A model generated the notes under the pieces. It made no database searches. It was not told where the DNA came from and saw nothing but the letters and a program-made list of their open reading frames with translations. From Actinophytocola xanthii (lineage in GTDB: Bacteria; Actinomycetota; Actinomycetes; Mycobacteriales; Pseudonocardiaceae): 64,000 bases of DNA. Of this stretch, positions 8,960-39,981 are shown in pieces. The stretch covers positions 124,001 through 188,000 of the forward strand of contig NZ_MSIE01000001.1 of the NCBI RefSeq assembly GCF_001921205.1. Direction: 5' to 3'. The position numbers and the translations under genes are program-made. Position 1 is the first letter of the stretch. Every line of letters starts with the position of its first letter.

Positions 8960-10588
<1,629 letters not shown>

Positions 10589-10631
10589 CGTGTGACAGAC
10601 TCCGGGATCTGGTGTTGGGCAGGCCTCGTCC

Positions 10632-10655
10632 GCTCGCCGGTCGCGACCGGCGAGC
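10632..10655. promoter_or_regulatory. 24-bp perfect palindrome in the ABC-F upstream region
   Basis: Left arm GCTCGCCGGTCG is followed at once by its reverse complement. It lies 44 bp upstream of the ABC-F start on the minus strand and 113 bp upstream of the SDR gene on the plus strand. It could be a dimeric operator or, in RNA, a leader hairpin. Confidence 0.5.
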
Positions 10656-10737
10656 CCACCTGCGGCCTAGTCCGTCCGCACCACCACGTCGTCGAGTGTA
10701 CGGGTCGGCGGCAACCGCTTTACCGGCCACTCGTGCC

Positions 10738-10760
10738 CTAAGCAGTCGCTTAGCTAGAGT
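10738..10760 (+). promoter_or_regulatory. SDR gene promoter with inverted-repeat operator
   Basis: CTAAGC-N4-GCTTAG (10738-10753) abuts the -10 box TAGAGT (10755-10760), which ends eight bases before ATG 10769. The half-site AAGC/GCTT resembles operators of TetR-family lipid regulators. No ribosome site is present. Confidence 0.5.
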
Positions 10761-10768
10761 CTGGACCC

Positions 10769-11536
10769 ATGACATCGGACTTCACGGGCAGGGTCGCACT
10801 GGTCACGGGCGCGAGCCGCGGAATCGGGCACGCGATCGCGGTGGAGCTCGCCCGGGGCGGCGCGGCCGTGACGATCTCCTCCCGCAAGGCGGACCAGCTC
10901 GAGGCTGCGGCGCAGGAGCTGCGGGCCGCGGTGCCCGGCGCCAGGGTGCTCGCGGTGCCGGCGAACACAGGCGACGACGAGCACCGCGCCGAGGTCGTGC
11001 GGCGCACGGTCGAGGAGTTCGGCCGGCTGGACGTCCTGGTCAACAACACCGGGATCAACCCGACCTTCGGGCCGCTCGCCGACGCCGACCTGGGCGCGGT
11101 GCGCAAGCTCTTCGACGTCAACGTGGTGGGGGCGCTGGGCTACGTCCAGCTCGCGCTCAAGGCGTGGATGGCCGAGCACGGCGGCGCGATCGTGAACATC
11201 GCCTCGGTGGCCGGGCTGCGCTCCTCCGGGGTGATCGCCGCGTACGGGGCGAGCAAGGCGGCGCTGATTCGGCTGACCGAGGAGCTCGCCTGGCAGCTCG
11301 GCCCCGGCGTCCGGGTGAACGCGGTGGCGCCCGCGGTGGTGAAGACGAAGTTCGCCGAGGCGCTCTACACCGACCGCGAGGAGCAGGCCGCCGCCGCGTA
11401 CCCGATGAAGCGGCTCGGCACCCCCGAGGACGTGGCCGAGCTGGTCGCCTTCCTCGCCTCCGACCGGGCTCCCTGGATCACCGGCGAGACCGTCCGCGTC
11501 GACGGCGGCCTGCTCGCCACCGGCACCCTCGGCTGA
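10769..11536 (+). CDS. Short-chain dehydrogenase/reductase (FabG-like)
   Basis: A 255-residue classical SDR. Cofactor motif TGASRGIG (13-20), structural NNTG (92-95) and catalytic Ser146, Tyr159 and Lys163 (Y-G-A-S-K) are all present. ISSRK (36-40) places a basic residue where NADP-preferring members have one. The C-terminal RVDGGLLATGTLG is typical of the beta-ketoacyl-ACP reductase-like subgroup, so a 3-hydroxyacyl or hydroxysteroid-type substrate is plausible but not shown. The mRNA is probably leaderless. The gene ends at a strong hairpin shared with the convergent protease gene. Confidence 0.85.
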   Translation: MTSDFTGRVALVTGASRGIGHAIAVELARGGAAVTISSRKADQLEAAAQELRAAVPGARVLAVPANTGDDEHRAEVVRRTVEEFGRLDVLVNNTGINPTFGPLADADLGAVRKLFDVNVVGALGYVQLALKAWMAEHGGAIVNIASVAGLRSSGVIAAYGASKAALIRLTEELAWQLGPGVRVNAVAPAVVKTKFAEALYTDREEQAAAAYPMKRLGTPEDVAELVAFLASDRAPWITGETVRVDGGLLATGTLG

Positions 11537-11555
11537 CCGGTCCCCGCACGCGAAA

Positions 11556-11588
11556 GGGCCGCCGCCGGCGTGCTGCCGGCGGCGGCCC
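11556..11588. terminator. Bidirectional terminator hairpin
   Basis: A perfect 14-bp stem (GGGCCGCCGCCGGC / reverse complement) with a 5-base loop lies between the convergent SDR and protease genes and is followed by GTTTCG on the plus strand and TTTCG on the minus strand. Confidence 0.85.
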
Positions 11589-11607
11589 GTTTCGTTGCGG
11601 TCAACGC

Positions 11608-14439
11608 CTACGGCGTGACGTACCCGTTGATGTGCAGCGAGACCGCGCGGATCGAACCGGTGTCGGCCCGCGCGACGTCGAACGCGCTGAACGTCCACGC
11701 GCCGTCGACAGCCTCACCACGCAGCCCGGCGAACGGGTCGATCGGGCGGTAGGTGCCGGTGAACGGCGCGTCGCCCGAGCCCACCGAGGAGAACGGCGCC
11801 TCGGCCGCGTCGTCGAACACGACCTGGCAGAGGTTGTTCCCCCCGGCGCCGGCCCCGCCGAACACCTGCGCCGTCGCCCCGGACGGCGCGGTGAGCACGC
11901 CGACCAGGTCACCGACGTAGGTGTGGTCGATGCCGACGGTGGTCGCGCCGATCGCGGTCGAGCAGGTCGTGCCGTCGATCGAGAACGTCAGCTTCGACGC
12001 CCGACCGACCCCGCTGACCGGGATCTGCACGCTCGCACCCACGGTGCTCGCGTCCGGGATCGCCACCGGCGCGCCGGTGTAGGCGAAGTCGACGGTCACG
12101 TCGGAGGGCCGGCCGACCTCGAGGCTGAAGGTCGTGGTGTTCGGCGAGAAGGCACCCGCGAAGGTGACCCGCGCGTTGAGCACCACCGGCACTCCCACCG
12201 GGTGCGACGTCGGCACCCTGACCTCGAAGGACCGGACGGCGGTCTCGCCCTTCTCGAGCGTCCCGTAGGAGCGCGAGCGCGGCGTGATGGTCACGCCCGG
12301 GGTGGGCGAGGTCAGCACGACGCTGGTGGACACCGCGGTGGCGTCACCGACGTTGGTGACCGGCAGCTCCACCGCCACCGTGTCGCCCGGGTCGATGTAC
12401 TGGCCACCGTCGCTGGGCCGGATCTTCGGACCGCGGGCCTGGGCCAGCGGCTGCGGGCTCGCCCCGGTGTAGTCCAGCACCCGGTCGGCCAGCACCACGC
12501 CGTGGCCGCTGCGCCCGTCGACACCCTCCTCGACGATGTCGATCGCCGTCGAGGTCAGCGCCTCCCGGACCTCCGCCGGGTCGATGCCGGGGTTGCCGGA
12601 CAGGACCAGGCCGGCGATCGCCGCGGCATGCGGTGCGGCCGCCGAGGTGCCGAAGAACGGGTCGAAGCCGTCCACGCTTGTCATGACGCCGTCCGCCGCG
12701 GTGATGTCCGGCTTCTGCCGCACCTCGCCGCCGGTGGAGCTGACGTTGCCCGGCGTGATCGGCGTGCCGTCGGCCTCGTAGAAGACCCGGCGCGGTCCGT
12801 CGGAGGTGAACCGCTCGACGGCGGAGTCCTCGTTGAAGGCGTCGGGGTAGGGCCCGCTCGGGTTCGGCGGGTCGCCCGGCTCCAGATCGAACGGCAGCGG
12901 CTCGTCCGCCGGTGCCGCGGCGACGCTGTACGCGCCCCGGGCGGCCGAGTGGCCGAACGTGACGCCGGGGGTGTTGAACGCCTTGAGCCCGTCGGCCGAG
13001 TCCGAGAACCGGCCGCGGAGCGCCGTCAGCGACAGGTACCGGTCGGCCCCGGCGAACTTGACCACCGCCAGCCGCAGGCCCGTGCCGCCGAAGACCGGGG
13101 TGTTCACCCGCTCGTAGGCGTCCTGGGTACCGGTCTGGTAGTCCTGGCTCGCGGCCAGCACGTTGCCCGCCGCGTCCAGCATGTACAGGTCGTAGTCGTT
13201 GCCGGACCGGCCGATCGGGTCGGACCAGTTCAGCAGCACCGGCACGCCCGCGGAGGACGCGTCGGAGATCGGCTGCAGCACCTGGGTGTTCGCCGAGGGG
13301 TCGAAGTCGTGGGCGTAGCCGGCGAACTTGCCGATCACCTGGCCGGAGTTGACGTAGTCACCCTCCCAGTGGCCCGCGGTGCCGTCGACGACGTTGCCCT
13401 CGTTGCCGGCCGAGGAGAAGTACAGGGCACCGTCGGCGATCACGTCGTTCACGGCCTGGGCGATGATCCAGTCCTGGAACGGCGCTTCCTTGAAGTAGAT
13501 GATGTCGTCGACGATGATGTCGCAGTCCAGCTCGAACCGGAGCGCGCGGATGTTGTCCGCGAAGCTCGCGTCGCCGTTGAACGCGGTGGCGAAGCCCAGC
13601 TCGGCGGTCGGCGCGACGTCGTGGATGATCTCGAGCATCGCCGTGCCCTCGTCACCCGCTCCGGCCTGGGTCGGCAGCACGTCGACGGCCGGCAGTTCGC
13701 CGGCGGCCTGCGAGGTGCCCAGCGAGTCGATGCCGTCGGACAGCGCGCAGATCTTCACGCCGACACCGGTGACGCCGATGTCCCGGCGGACGCTGTCGGC
13801 GTTGTGGGTGCGGTCCCCAGCGCTGTTGACCGGTCCGGCCCGGTCGGCCAGGGCCGCGCGGGTGTTCTTCTCGATCCGGGCGCGCTTGGCCTCCTTGGAC
13901 TCCGGCGCGGCCGGCTTGGCGTCCGGGTTGAGCTGACGCGCTGTCATCGCCCCGTCGGCGACCTCGACCTTGCGCACGTCGGCGCGGGCGGCGGTGCGGG
14001 CGATCGCGGACAGCGGCAGTTCCGCCCGGACAGTTCCGTAGCGTGTGGACACCGACTTCAGGGTGGCCCCCGAAGTGGTGAGCGCCTTGAGCAGGTCGTC
14101 ACTCACGGTGGCACGGATGTCCACCAACGTCTTGTTGCCCGAGACCTCGACGCCGTTCTGCAGGCGCGGCAGTGCCGCGGTCGCGGCCCGGTTGCTTCGC
14201 GCCTTCAGCTCGACCAGCAGCTTGCTGTCTACTTTGGCTTCGGTGCTGGTCGCCGCCTTCTTCAGGTCCTGCAGAGCGCCAATCTGGCGGGCCGCGTTCT
14301 CCATCGCCTGTGAGGCCTTGCTGTCCTCGTCAGGCGGAGCGGCGACCGCCGGGCTGGCCAGCCCGACCACGGCGAGCAGGCACGCCGCGGCCGTCAGCAG
14401 GCCTCGGGATCTTCGTGATGCGTGTGCAGGTGTGCGCAC
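11608..14439 (-). CDS. Secreted S8-like serine protease with P domain and atypical triad
   Basis: A 943-residue exported protein. The GTG at 14437-14439 is chosen because GGAGGG precedes it and it gives a clean signal peptide (RRSR, hydrophobic 13-31, AVA-A cleavage near 33). A propeptide-like region (about 35-200) precedes the subtilase domain: Asp in LSDGID (D235), oxyanion Asn in SSAGNEG (N346) and nucleophile S599 in GTSAAAPH. At the usual catalytic His the motif reads GDEGTAMLE, with E264 instead of His, as in sedolisin-like Glu/Asp/Ser enzymes. A CARDB-like beta domain (about 690-790) and a C-terminal proprotein-convertase P domain (about 825-943) follow. Substrate unknown; activity is unproven given the triad. 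Confidence 0.8.
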   Translation of the reverse strand: MRTPAHASRRSRGLLTAAACLLAVVGLASPAVAAPPDEDSKASQAMENAARQIGALQDLKKAATSTEAKVDSKLLVELKARSNRAATAALPRLQNGVEVSGNKTLVDIRATVSDDLLKALTTSGATLKSVSTRYGTVRAELPLSAIARTAARADVRKVEVADGAMTARQLNPDAKPAAPESKEAKRARIEKNTRAALADRAGPVNSAGDRTHNADSVRRDIGVTGVGVKICALSDGIDSLGTSQAAGELPAVDVLPTQAGAGDEGTAMLEIIHDVAPTAELGFATAFNGDASFADNIRALRFELDCDIIVDDIIYFKEAPFQDWIIAQAVNDVIADGALYFSSAGNEGNVVDGTAGHWEGDYVNSGQVIGKFAGYAHDFDPSANTQVLQPISDASSAGVPVLLNWSDPIGRSGNDYDLYMLDAAGNVLAASQDYQTGTQDAYERVNTPVFGGTGLRLAVVKFAGADRYLSLTALRGRFSDSADGLKAFNTPGVTFGHSAARGAYSVAAAPADEPLPFDLEPGDPPNPSGPYPDAFNEDSAVERFTSDGPRRVFYEADGTPITPGNVSSTGGEVRQKPDITAADGVMTSVDGFDPFFGTSAAAPHAAAIAGLVLSGNPGIDPAEVREALTSTAIDIVEEGVDGRSGHGVVLADRVLDYTGASPQPLAQARGPKIRPSDGGQYIDPGDTVAVELPVTNVGDATAVSTSVVLTSPTPGVTITPRSRSYGTLEKGETAVRSFEVRVPTSHPVGVPVVLNARVTFAGAFSPNTTTFSLEVGRPSDVTVDFAYTGAPVAIPDASTVGASVQIPVSGVGRASKLTFSIDGTTCSTAIGATTVGIDHTYVGDLVGVLTAPSGATAQVFGGAGAGGNNLCQVVFDDAAEAPFSSVGSGDAPFTGTYRPIDPFAGLRGEAVDGAWTFSAFDVARADTGSIRAVSLHINGYVTP

Positions 14440-37412: not shown

Positions 37413-37478
37413 CCTGACGGTAACCAGGTCAGGTCACTCTTTTCGCCTATATCTCGGGGCACGGCACGGAGGTAGAGT
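37413..37478 (+). promoter_or_regulatory. Control region of the 2-TM/cupin module
   Basis: An inverted repeat CCTGAC-N9-GTCAGG (37413-37433) is followed by an AT-rich patch and a -10-like TAGAGT (37473-37478). The leader then has a strong ribosome site GAGGTGAT before TTG 37518. Confidence 0.4.
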
Positions 37479-37517: not shown

Positions 37518-38519
37518 TTGTCAGCGGACGGCAAAGGCCTCCGCAAGAACCCGATTCAAGAGATCTTCTGGACTAGAACCGGCCTCCTACTCCTGATCTT
37601 GTTGGTGACATCGGGCCTGACCATGATCGCCTCGAGCGGCATGGCCGCCGGAACCGGGAGGAACCTGGTCACGGCGATGGCGACGGGGACCCTCGTCTCG
37701 GCGATAGTGGGCTTCGGCCAGACGCTGATCACCGCCAGCGCGGCCCAGCGGGCCATGCTCACGCCGCTCATCGAGGAGAGTCGCCAGGCGCTGCGCGACC
37801 TGGCCGACGAGTACCGATCGATGAACCGGGAGTTCTTCCCCACTCACGTGTTCGAGCCCACCGCCGAGCCCAGCCCCGCCTTCAACCGGCTGATGATGCA
37901 GGACCTGGAGAACACGAGGCACTACCTGTTTCGGGGCTTCTCCGGCCGGCATGCCGCCGCCAGGCTGCTGCTGTCGCGTTCGGAGTGGGAGTTCAGGGCC
38001 GTGGTGTCCGACCCGCGCAACCTCTCGGGGGTCGGCGGCCGGGCCAGGTACCTGATCCGGCACTCCGCCGCCGACGTCGACCAGGACACGATCAACGCAC
38101 GGCTGCACGAGGAGATCAGAATCGGCCTGGTGGGCCTGTTCCTGGCTCGGAGCAGGTGCACCAGGATGGAGGTGACCGTGATCTCCGACCCGCCCATCGA
38201 CCGGTTGGAGATCTTCGACGACAGCGTCTGGGTGACGCTCTACAGCGACGCCCGGGCCACCAACGCGTTCCCGCGGACGCTGCGGTTCTCCGAGGGCTCG
38301 TTCGTCTACACGATGGAGCGGGCCGAGTTCTCCCGGATCTCCGCATCCCGCCACGCACACCACCTGGTGATCACGCCGAACACCACGCGCGAGGACTTCA
38401 TCGCGCAGTTCGAGAAGGTCACCGGGAGCAGACTCACCGAGGAGCAGTTCCTTGAGTTGAACGCCGAGTTCTACAACTTCCTCCGAGACTTCTCCGTTAC
38501 CGCCGAGTTGGGGAGCTGA
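37518..38519 (+). CDS. Two-helix membrane protein of unknown function
   Basis: An unrecognised 333-residue protein. Two adjacent membrane helices (about 18-42 and 48-72) at the N-terminus are followed by a cytoplasmic domain: a helical part (73-130), then alternating strands and helices with EWEFRAVVSDPRNL, CTRMEVTVISDPPIDRLEIFDDSVWVTLY and RTLRFSEGSFVYTMERAEF. The pattern recalls membrane-anchored phosphodiesterase/PLD-like or nucleotide-binding effector folds, without a recognisable HKD motif. The TTG start has GAGGTGAT upstream; no other start fits. The cupin gene follows 5 bp after the stop, so the two form an operon. Function cannot be assigned. Confidence 0.7.
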   Translation: MSADGKGLRKNPIQEIFWTRTGLLLLILLVTSGLTMIASSGMAAGTGRNLVTAMATGTLVSAIVGFGQTLITASAAQRAMLTPLIEESRQALRDLADEYRSMNREFFPTHVFEPTAEPSPAFNRLMMQDLENTRHYLFRGFSGRHAAARLLLSRSEWEFRAVVSDPRNLSGVGGRARYLIRHSAADVDQDTINARLHEEIRIGLVGLFLARSRCTRMEVTVISDPPIDRLEIFDDSVWVTLYSDARATNAFPRTLRFSEGSFVYTMERAEFSRISASRHAHHLVITPNTTREDFIAQFEKVTGSRLTEEQFLELNAEFYNFLRDFSVTAELGS

Positions 38520-38524
38520 TAGTC

Positions 38525-39163
38525 GTGCCCTTGCGGGTTTCCGCCGTGGGCGAGCTGGCAGAGCAGCTGTGCGATGCCGATTTCGACCTGGTCGAGCAGT
38601 GGGACCGGGTAGACAAGTACTTCGCGGCCTGGGCCGAGCAGCCGGGTCTGCGGATGAACCTGCGACACCACCTGCTCAACCTGCCCAACGACCGGGCCGA
38701 GGCGATCATCGAGCGCTCCCGCGAGACGACAACCCACTTCGCCTGGTGCCTGCGCGACCGGCCGGAGGAGCCGTTCACGTTCTGGCTGCACGAGTACAAA
38801 CAGCAGCGGGACTGGCGGCAGGGCTACGCGGACTCGGTACACAACCACCGCTACCACTTCTGCACGACGATCCTGCGCGGCGGCTACCTTCACGAACGGT
38901 ACGACGCGCGGCTGGACCCGGACACCGAGCTGATCGGCTCGGCCGAGCTCCTGCAGAGCACGCCGTGCCCGGTCGGCGCGAGCGGCTTCCTGCTGGCCTC
39001 GGACTTCCACCGCATCCCGCGCGCGGCCGACGGGACCATGACGTTCCTGGTCAAGTCCCGCTCGGTCATGCCGTGGAGCCTGTCCTACGACCCGGCCACG
39101 CAGGAAAGCCACCGGCACGTCCCGGTGGAGTCGAGGTTGGAGCAGCTGGCCCACCGGCTTTGA
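38525..39163 (+). CDS. Three-His cupin, thiol-dioxygenase-like
   Basis: A 212-residue soluble protein. H106 and H108 in SVHNHRYHFCTTILRGGYLHERY and H162 in ASDFHRIP are spaced like the 3-His iron site of cysteine dioxygenase-type cupins; W183 and Y188 near the C-terminus are aromatic. It could be a mononuclear-iron dioxygenase or a binding protein. No Gly-rich or metal-binding Cys motif is present. GTG 38525 follows GGGGAG; the gene is coupled to the 2-TM protein gene. It ends 125 bp before the HD gene, which has its own promoter. No family name is claimed. Confidence 0.62.
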   Translation: MPLRVSAVGELAEQLCDADFDLVEQWDRVDKYFAAWAEQPGLRMNLRHHLLNLPNDRAEAIIERSRETTTHFAWCLRDRPEEPFTFWLHEYKQQRDWRQGYADSVHNHRYHFCTTILRGGYLHERYDARLDPDTELIGSAELLQSTPCPVGASGFLLASDFHRIPRAADGTMTFLVKSRSVMPWSLSYDPATQESHRHVPVESRLEQLAHRL

Positions 39164-39237: not shown

Positions 39238-39283
39238 TACCATCTCCCCTACCAACCTGCCGCAAGGCACGTTGGTTGGGGAG
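39238..39283 (+). promoter_or_regulatory. Promoter and 13-bp inverted repeat before the HD gene
   Basis: -10 box TACCAT (39238-39243) is followed at once by CTCCCCTACCAAC (39244-39256), which is matched at 12 of 13 bases by the inverted copy at 39271-39283. The right arm carries the GGGGAG ribosome site of ATG 39289. It could be an operator or a leader hairpin hiding the ribosome site. Confidence 0.5.
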
Positions 39284-39288
39284 GGGTC

Positions 39289-39981
39289 ATGCACACCGAG
39301 GACGCCGCAGCGGTTCGTGCCGCCGTGCCCGCGGTACCGGCCGCCGTGCTCGCGATCGTCGACGCGCAGGTGCGCAAGCTGTGCGCGCGGTACGCCAAGC
39401 GCCTGCCGTTCCACGGGTGGCACCACGTGAGCTTCGTGCGCTCCAAAGCGGTGCAGTTCGCCGGTGCCAACGGCGCCGAGGTGAGCGTCGTCGAGACGGC
39501 GGCCCTCGTGCACGACGTGAACTACCTGGTGCGAAGGAACTCCCCGGCGGCGGCCGGCGGCCGGTTGCGCCAGGACATGCTCGCCCGCGCGGGGGTCGCG
39601 GCGGACACGGCGCGCTGGATCGAGGATGTCGTCGTGGAGGCCGAGATGGCCAACCGCGGCCCGGACATCTCGCTCGAGGCACAAGCACTGTCCGATGCGG
39701 ACACCCTGTTCAAGGCGCTGCCGGTGACGCCGGTGATGCTCTCGCACCGCTACCTCGCTGAGAACGGCATCACCCTGCGCGAGCTGGCGGACAAGATCGT
39801 CGGTGAGCAGCAGGACAAGCACGACGAGGGCTACTACTTCTACAACACCGAGGCGGCGGCGACCTACTCCCGCTGGGCCGCGACGAACCTCATGCTCTGG
39901 CAGCACATCCGCGAGTCCCTGGACGACGACGACGTCACCGACCTGCTCGACGCGGTCAACGCGCACGCGGCCGCGTCCTGA
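39289..39981 (+). CDS. HD-domain phosphohydrolase
   Basis: A 230-residue HD-superfamily protein: H42-G-W-H45-H46, H75-D76 (ALVHDVNY) and a later Asp (LSDADTLF) make the metal site. Such small cytosolic HD proteins cut phosphomonoesters or nucleotides; the substrate is unknown. A C-terminal Tyr/Trp-rich helix region (GYYFYNTEAAATYSRWAATNL) is typical. It may belong functionally with the module upstream but has its own promoter. It ends 19 bp before the convergent SRPBCC gene. Confidence 0.78.
   Translation: MHTEDAAAVRAAVPAVPAAVLAIVDAQVRKLCARYAKRLPFHGWHHVSFVRSKAVQFAGANGAEVSVVETAALVHDVNYLVRRNSPAAAGGRLRQDMLARAGVAADTARWIEDVVVEAEMANRGPDISLEAQALSDADTLFKALPVTPVMLSHRYLAENGITLRELADKIVGEQQDKHDEGYYFYNTEAAATYSRWAATNLMLWQHIRESLDDDDVTDLLDAVNAHAAAS

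Follow-up and report, generated by a model that had tools for sequence, protein, structure and literature searches.

A probable three-gene unit in Actinophytocola xanthii comprising a membrane-anchored protein of predicted phospholipase D fold, a thiol-dioxygenase-type cupin and an HD-domain hydrolase

Members of the cysteine dioxygenase family are characterized by a Ser-His-Tyr triad, as described in PMC10966181. For the HD-domain protein YpgQ, represented by entry 5dqv, the review PMC8177086 gives hydrolysis of nucleotide triphosphates and the residues H29, H58, D59, and D124. Proteins resembling both kinds are encoded side by side in the window, i.e., the whole stretch of 64,000 nucleotides (nt) analyzed here, representing positions 124,001 to 188,000 of contig NZ_MSIE01000001.1 of Actinophytocola xanthii. 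A previous examination of this stretch (in the following, the sequence-only reading) had proposed a module of two genes, encoding a protein with two transmembrane segments (P1) and a cupin (P2), and had stated that nothing in the conserved neighborhood explains them. In that account, the HD-domain gene located downstream (HD) was noted but set aside as separately controlled. Our results indicate that HD is the constant third gene, its slot being filled by another phosphatase in remote relatives, and that P1, P2, and HD very probably represent one functional unit, as judged from sequence conservation.

P1 (333 amino acids, TTG start) and P2 (212 amino acids, GTG start) are complete genes separated by 5 nt, by which the tight linkage noted previously was borne out in coordinates and strand, and HD comes next on this strand after a gap of 125 nt (Table 1). 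In total, 33 locus rows containing P1 and P2 were compiled, corresponding to 31 distinct loci, since the contigs of L052 and L055 appear a second time as L083 and L084; L067, featuring a P1 relative alone, and L068, featuring a cupin alone, stand outside this count. HD follows P1 and P2 on the same strand in all 33 rows, and the gap between P2 and HD, with starts as called, amounts to at most 267 nt in 32 rows and to 2866 nt in L082. L065 and L066 are the two copies that diverge most (36–37% identity for P1); there, the genes overlap or abut, the gaps within the trio being −1 and 11 nt (L065) and −4 and 9 nt (L066). Furthermore, the flanking genes vary between locus groups, while the trio is constant; no neighboring genes of the 28–48 kb region of the window are held in common within approximately eight genes on either side in L063 to L066, L072, L077, L080, and L082. 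The latter locus harbors an insertion of approximately 2.9 kb (positions 10186 to 13051) between the cupin and HD genes, which includes a regulator-like open reading frame, and the HD leader is kept. L056 (JOAA01000015.1), titled Rhodococcus rhodnii NRRL B-16535, is Kibdelosporangium-like in gene content and identity, and its organism name may be wrong.

The distribution of the three genes was evaluated in 100 genomes (the own genome and 99 relatives), where matches with E-values below 1e-49 (P1), 1e-25 (P2), and 1e-90 (HD) were considered strong. Strong matches were obtained for P1 in 22, for P2 in 23, and for HD in 23 genomes; P2 and HD were matched in the same 23 genomes, among which are all 22 with P1, the genome without P1 (G016) being one in which the contig starts inside the cupin gene. 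Raw tallies at an E-value of 0.001, weak partial matches included, were 23, 24, and 26 of 100, respectively. Among 296 genomes of the class, strong matches for P1, P2, and HD were restricted to G000 and G049. The cupin profile matched 43 of 397 genomes of the order at an E-value of 0.001, with 34 strong matches (33 within the own family, and G093), and weaker HD relatives were found elsewhere (G035 with an E-value of 3.8e-12, G023, and others). This survey of co-occurrence, named in the sequence-only reading as a possible refutation, yielded a P1–P2 pair that is conserved together. No probability is offered as evidence for the co-occurrence, because common descent inflates its significance.

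P1 features one clear hydrophobic segment (residues 21–39) and a second, weaker one near residue 53 (Kyte-Doolittle 1.45), and its predicted structure contains helices at residues 20–39 and 46–106, in agreement with the two membrane segments assumed before. Two separate hydrophobic segments were also detected in the relatives from L065, L066, L202, and L211, and one at the same threshold in L067. By structure comparison, the cytoplasmic part was assigned to the phospholipase D (PLD, HKD) fold. The H.K....D motif is present in none of 24 P1 rows: in a register set by eye, the His position is occupied by Ile, Leu, or Val, Lys is replaced by Arg in all 24 rows, and Asp is retained in 23. A catalytically active PLD was ruled out, the HKD His being absent from P1. 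A search with P1 was negative for phages and gave a single match, with 26% identity, in plasmids, where the P1 relative of L067 and P2 had none. This relative (L135, NZ_CP095404.2, 646375 to 647421) is located on a 691-kb plasmid of Rhodococcus opacus, adjoined by no annotated cupin or phosphatase.

For P2, structure comparison revealed a cupin fold of the thiol-dioxygenase type. All 50 VIA matches listed are thiol dioxygenases or so named, except YubC, which is an uncharacterized, cysteine-dioxygenase-like protein, and P2 matches a PHROG cysteine dioxygenase family. H106, H108, and H162, which had already been recognized, are conserved without exception in the 24 aligned relatives, the window counted among them, and in 14 of 14 sequences of a broader set. 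In contrast to the cysteine dioxygenase family, an S-x-H-x-Y triad, the spacing of which was derived from residue numbers in PMC10966181, occurs in none of the cupin rows (0/24, 0/14, and 0/5). P2 was assigned to no Pfam family; its homologue in L065 reached 17.6 bits for CDO_I at a cut-off of 23. Neither P1 nor P2 had a match near the cut-off in Pfam, NCBIfam, or PADLOC, and searches of P1, P2, and P2 relatives by sequence against solved structures gave nothing useful. The earlier statement of no recognizable family applies to these three libraries, but not to the PHROG match and the two recognizable folds, namely those of a membrane-anchored, degenerate PLD-type domain and of a thiol-dioxygenase-type cupin, obtained by structure prediction. 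By sequence, neither protein belongs to a described family for which a shared role is known, an outcome that leaves the earlier proposal standing in this respect.

Distant cupins of the P2 kind were also observed in other surroundings. In L100, L102, L103, L169, and L172, they stand beside radical-SAM genes and, in some of these loci, NUDIX-like, P-loop kinase-like, and PfkB-like genes, representing a recurring set (Pfam for L169). In L101 and L168, the cupin is accompanied by formyltransferase-like, aminotransferase-like, nucleotide-kinase-like, and endonuclease/phosphatase-fold proteins, named by Pfam for three L168 proteins and by eye for the rest. The cupin of L068 adjoins an NDP-kinase-like gene, ABC transporter genes, and an aldolase-like gene, as read by eye.

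An HD profile built from 24 sequences matched 5dqv with an E-value of 4.4e-8 over profile positions 38–138 of 224. In this alignment, read by eye, the YpgQ residues H29, H58, D59, and D124 correspond to H46, H75, D76, and D138 of HD, which, together with H42, are conserved in 24 of 24 rows. No further well-conserved His was found between HD residues 77 and 137 (column 124 contains His in 11 of 24 rows, and other columns in fewer than 6). Given the H...HD...D arrangement and no further conserved His, HD is expected to be a mononuclear metal phosphohydrolase; a diiron HD oxygenase was ruled out, the extra conserved His being absent. The Pfam HD score in the window is 16.7 bits, below the cut-off of 22, which the L065 homologue passes (22.8) and the L066 homologue fails (19.9).

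Concerning expression signals, the TTG start of P1 lies 6 nt downstream of GAGGTGA, and the start region is kept across relatives. The extended P1 promoter pattern has one exact site in the own genome, in front of P1; beyond it, a regulon search with this pattern gave two sites with two mismatches, compared to four for the reversed control. The promoter assumed for P1 and P2 is supported by the conserved −10-like box and upstream block, but a plain scan for sigma-70 promoters and terminators found nothing. The inverted repeat described ahead of P1 could not be substantiated, as only arms of 6 nt were detected and the region folds no better than shuffles (z −0.24). Rfam returned two matches, both far under the gathering score.

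In near relatives, the HD leader contains a −10-like box with a hairpin immediately downstream, the 3′ arm of which lies over the Shine-Dalgarno sequence (39238 to 39291 in the window). Folding was evaluated for 28 HD leaders (locus rows minus L056, L083, and L084, and minus the leaderless L065 and L066), which were cut by eye with ends chosen by hand, while control leaders had a fixed length. The median dinucleotide-shuffle z was −1.99, with 22 of 28 at −1 or below. In comparison, the P1 leaders from these loci had a median of −0.22 (5 of 28 at −1 or below), as did a further 101 leaders (−0.22; 29%). Pairing of the Shine-Dalgarno sequence (4–5 of 5 bases) separates less (HD 20/28, P1 12/28, others 48% of 101), and Kibdelosporangium HD leaders mostly fold weakly. 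Since the MAFFT alignment of 20 of the 28 leaders is not structural, and hence comes without a covariation count, the claim relies on folding relative to shuffles. In most of the 28 relatives' leaders, the hairpin was seen to be present with changed sequence. Translational control of HD is possible, and the gene may be tuned separately though part of the unit; the separate control proposed earlier is consistent with the box and the hairpin, but the gene so controlled is the constant third member.

Table 1. Features of the P1–P2–HD locus and their positions in the window.
Feature	Position	Strand	Basis
Conserved block upstream of P1 (promoter region)	37434..37455	+	30 aligned upstream regions
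−10-like box TAGAGT, P1–P2	37473..37478	+	TA[CG]AGT in 24/30 aligned upstream regions
Shine-Dalgarno GAGGTGA, P1	37505..37511	+	Sequence; most relatives GGAGGTG-like
P1, two predicted helices (residues 20–39; start of helix 46–106) and cytoplasmic PLD-fold domain with degenerate HKD	37518..38519	+	
PLD-fold domain, P1 residues 103–304	37824..38429	+	VIA-align span vs PLD-superfamily chains
P2, cupin with thiol-dioxygenase fold; H106, H108, H162	38525..39163	+	
−10-like box TACCAT, HD gene	39238..39243	+	Same position ahead of hairpin, 28 leaders
HD leader hairpin, two 18-nt arms, 89% complementary; 3′ arm overlaps Shine-Dalgarno	39244..39283	+	
HD-domain hydrolase, YpgQ-like, third unit member	39289..39981	+	

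Remote relatives of the P1–cupin pair are adjoined by an inositol-monophosphatase-family gene in five of five loci. The order is methyltransferase, P1 relative, cupin, and inositol-monophosphatase-family gene in L203, L204, and L205, and P1 relative, cupin, and inositol-monophosphatase-family gene in L211 and L212, with overlapping ends in L211; the phosphatase was assigned by library matches for L203 and L211 and by sequence likeness for the other loci. The search yielding L203 to L205 gave marginal E-values of 3.9e-4 to 7.8e-4. Comparisons of broad profiles with the inositol-phosphatase type all resulted in hit probabilities of 88–96, including 95.9 (E-value 5.6e-9) for P1 and 94.2 (E-value 1.1e-7) for P2. 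Separate support for homology to this type comes from the shared gene order together with a short overlap, which amounts to 4 nt in L203 and L211. Higher values were achieved for P2 against the cupins of L165 and L166 (99.6, E-value 4.6e-24) and for P1 against the HAD-linked group (hhalign 99.9, E-value 3.1e-31), whose alignment also holds L165. In L165 (G399), a P1 relative, a cupin, and an FkbM methyltransferase stand in a row, and no phosphatase was found in this three-gene run.

In a further recurring set from Pseudonocardiaceae (L067, L201, and L202), a P1 relative adjoins a TIR-motif giant of 1922–1979 amino acids. Pfam assigned TIR, a NACHT-associated domain, and WD40 repeats to the L202 giant, and its TIR part matches PADLOC TIR models (best E-value 2.7e-8). 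A methyltransferase is encoded in L201 and L202, while in L067 it was deduced solely from an antisense open reading frame. A HAD-type gene overlaps the P1 relative in L067 and L202 but was not found in L201, and no cupin was found in any of the three loci. A TIR-motif protein was also located near the L204 set. Otherwise, PADLOC gave weak matches only, for the P1 relative of L203 (AbiEii, 0.0042) and for methyltransferases (mad2).

From the gene set, gene order, predicted folds, and conserved residues, we infer the metal, the substrate, complex formation, and the direction of control as follows. The membrane-anchored P1 would bind, without cleaving, an anionic phosphate-bearing ligand through its PLD-fold domain, as suggested by the fold, the loss of the catalytic His, and the invariant Arg. 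P2 would coordinate a single metal ion through its three His and most likely be a non-heme Fe(II) oxygenase, with a sulfur-containing small molecule or one of similar kind as substrate, and HD would strip phosphate or pyrophosphate from the metabolite of P2 or from the P1 ligand. P1 would recruit and switch P2 and HD at the membrane, whereby a phosphorylated metabolite would be sensed and then destroyed or remodeled. The receptor-like protein and the cupin remain constant while the phosphatase slot is filled by unrelated folds, and therefore a common phosphorylated substrate is suggested. Metabolite processing with P1 as binding protein is the reading that we favor, at somewhat short of an even chance. 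The previous proposal of a sensor or effector tethered to the membrane and paired with a soluble protein resembling an iron enzyme fits the predicted folds and the three-His site, but not as a two-gene module. A wider generalization is tentative and on the doubtful side, namely a three-part system general to actinobacteria. Its constant parts would be a membrane-anchored receptor with a dead PLD fold and a thiol-dioxygenase-like cupin, whereas the phosphatase would be of either the HD or the inositol-monophosphatase type (HAD in cupin-less relatives); one class of phosphorylated signal metabolites would be sensed and destroyed, and the receptor would have been recruited into TIR-NACHT-WD40 conflict islands.

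Several observations weigh against the favored reading. Common descent within one family partly explains the co-occurrence, and HD, having its own promoter-like box and leader in near relatives, could be expressed apart. The Foldseek TM-scores of P1 are low (0.24–0.32 by query length for the eight best), and P2 also retrieved other cupins with E-values of approximately 2e-5. Without the triad, the P2 reaction may differ from thiol oxidation, or P2 may be a non-enzyme. Distant cupins of the P2 kind stand without P1 beside radical-SAM genes in L100, L102, L103, L166, L169, and L172 (Pfam run for L166 and L169), so that a link to P1 does not hold across the whole cupin family. Finally, the inositol-phosphatase-type pair can be linked to P1 and P2 by homology only with the broad profiles, as narrow profiles fail or are weak (probabilities of 0.15, 10, and 2.6).

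Among the alternatives, the favored reading overlaps with two, a signaling unit and a non-catalytic cupin, and the three are not mutually exclusive. In a stress or conflict signaling unit, P1 would perceive a nucleotide-like signal as a receptor or act on it as a membrane effector; HD, or the inositol-phosphatase-family or HAD enzyme in its place, would turn this signal over, and the cupin would modify it. The TIR-motif giants beside P1 relatives, the accompanying methyltransferase and HAD-type genes, and the TIR-motif protein near L204 point in this direction, as does the action of YpgQ on nucleotides (PMC8177086). However, a motif scan found a TIR-motif gene in 0 of 33 HD-type rows, P1, P2, and HD are unmatched in PADLOC, and the phage and plasmid searches with P1 gave no more than the single plasmid match; we consider this explanation rather unlikely.

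P2 could also be a cupin that binds a metal or a ligand and relays information on a metabolite or oxygen to P1, leaving HD as the sole catalyst. The missing Ser-His-Tyr triad would be explained in this way, but the invariance of the three His in both sets and the near-exclusive thiol-dioxygenase identity of the VIA matches listed argue against it, making a non-enzyme unlikely. A metabolic pathway, for example the breakdown of a phosphorylated thiol with P1 as a non-sensing membrane dock, is quite improbable. Thiols linked to mycothiol, coenzyme A, or inositol are known actinobacterial metabolites, and the combination of a thiol-dioxygenase fold with phosphatases from unrelated superfamilies would suit such a role; the patchy spread (22 or 23 of 100 genomes) is ill-suited to a universal thiol, and no pathway gene constantly adjoins the unit. 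That P1 and P2 form a unit of two genes with HD as a merely old neighbor is very improbable and was rejected. The box and hairpin that HD has of its own in near relatives speak for it; against it stand the presence of HD in every row and in changed surroundings, its overlap or abutment in the two most divergent copies, and the different phosphatase filling the slot in remote relatives.

Returning to metabolite processing by P1, P2, and HD, the swap of phosphatase superfamilies beside constant partners would imply a shared phosphorylated substrate, for which no name was found. Once identified, it would assign a function to unannotated protein families, and it may account for the part played by small molecules in TIR-linked actinobacterial gene sets. 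If the reading is true, loss of any one of the three genes would be expected to alter one common compound.

Compared to known systems, P1, P2, and HD had no match in PADLOC-DB 2.0.0, a library covering described systems only. No description of the set was found in the open-licence literature searched, although it may be described elsewhere, and it is not named in the available parts of PMC8177086, PMC7159879, and PMC8195603. Each part has a recognizable fold, but in our assessment the assembly could not be placed with any known kind. P2 resembles the thiol dioxygenases (cysteine, 3-mercaptopropionate, and mercaptosuccinate) in its cupin fold and three-His site, but differs from them in the missing triad, an identity of 10–16%, and a best relative under the Pfam CDO_I cut-off. 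P1 shares the fold of the PLD/HKD superfamily and differs by the loss of the catalytic His in 24 of 24 rows and by its membrane anchor; the latter also sets it apart from the TrmB sugar-binding domain, TrmB being a transcriptional regulator according to the entry title. The TIR-NACHT-WD40 sets (L067, L201, and L202) contain a P1 homologue, with a HAD-type gene in L067 and L202, whereas the HD-type loci are free of the TIR motif, and the HAD-type sets were found without a cupin. Dinuclear HD enzymes possess two further His between the HD and the last Asp, which are missing here. HD is most similar in kind to the YpgQ-type nucleotide pyrophosphohydrolases, with which it shares the H...HD...D ligands and, over the positions covered by the profile match, sequence similarity. 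The subfamily differs from YpgQ in that it occurs together with P1 and P2.
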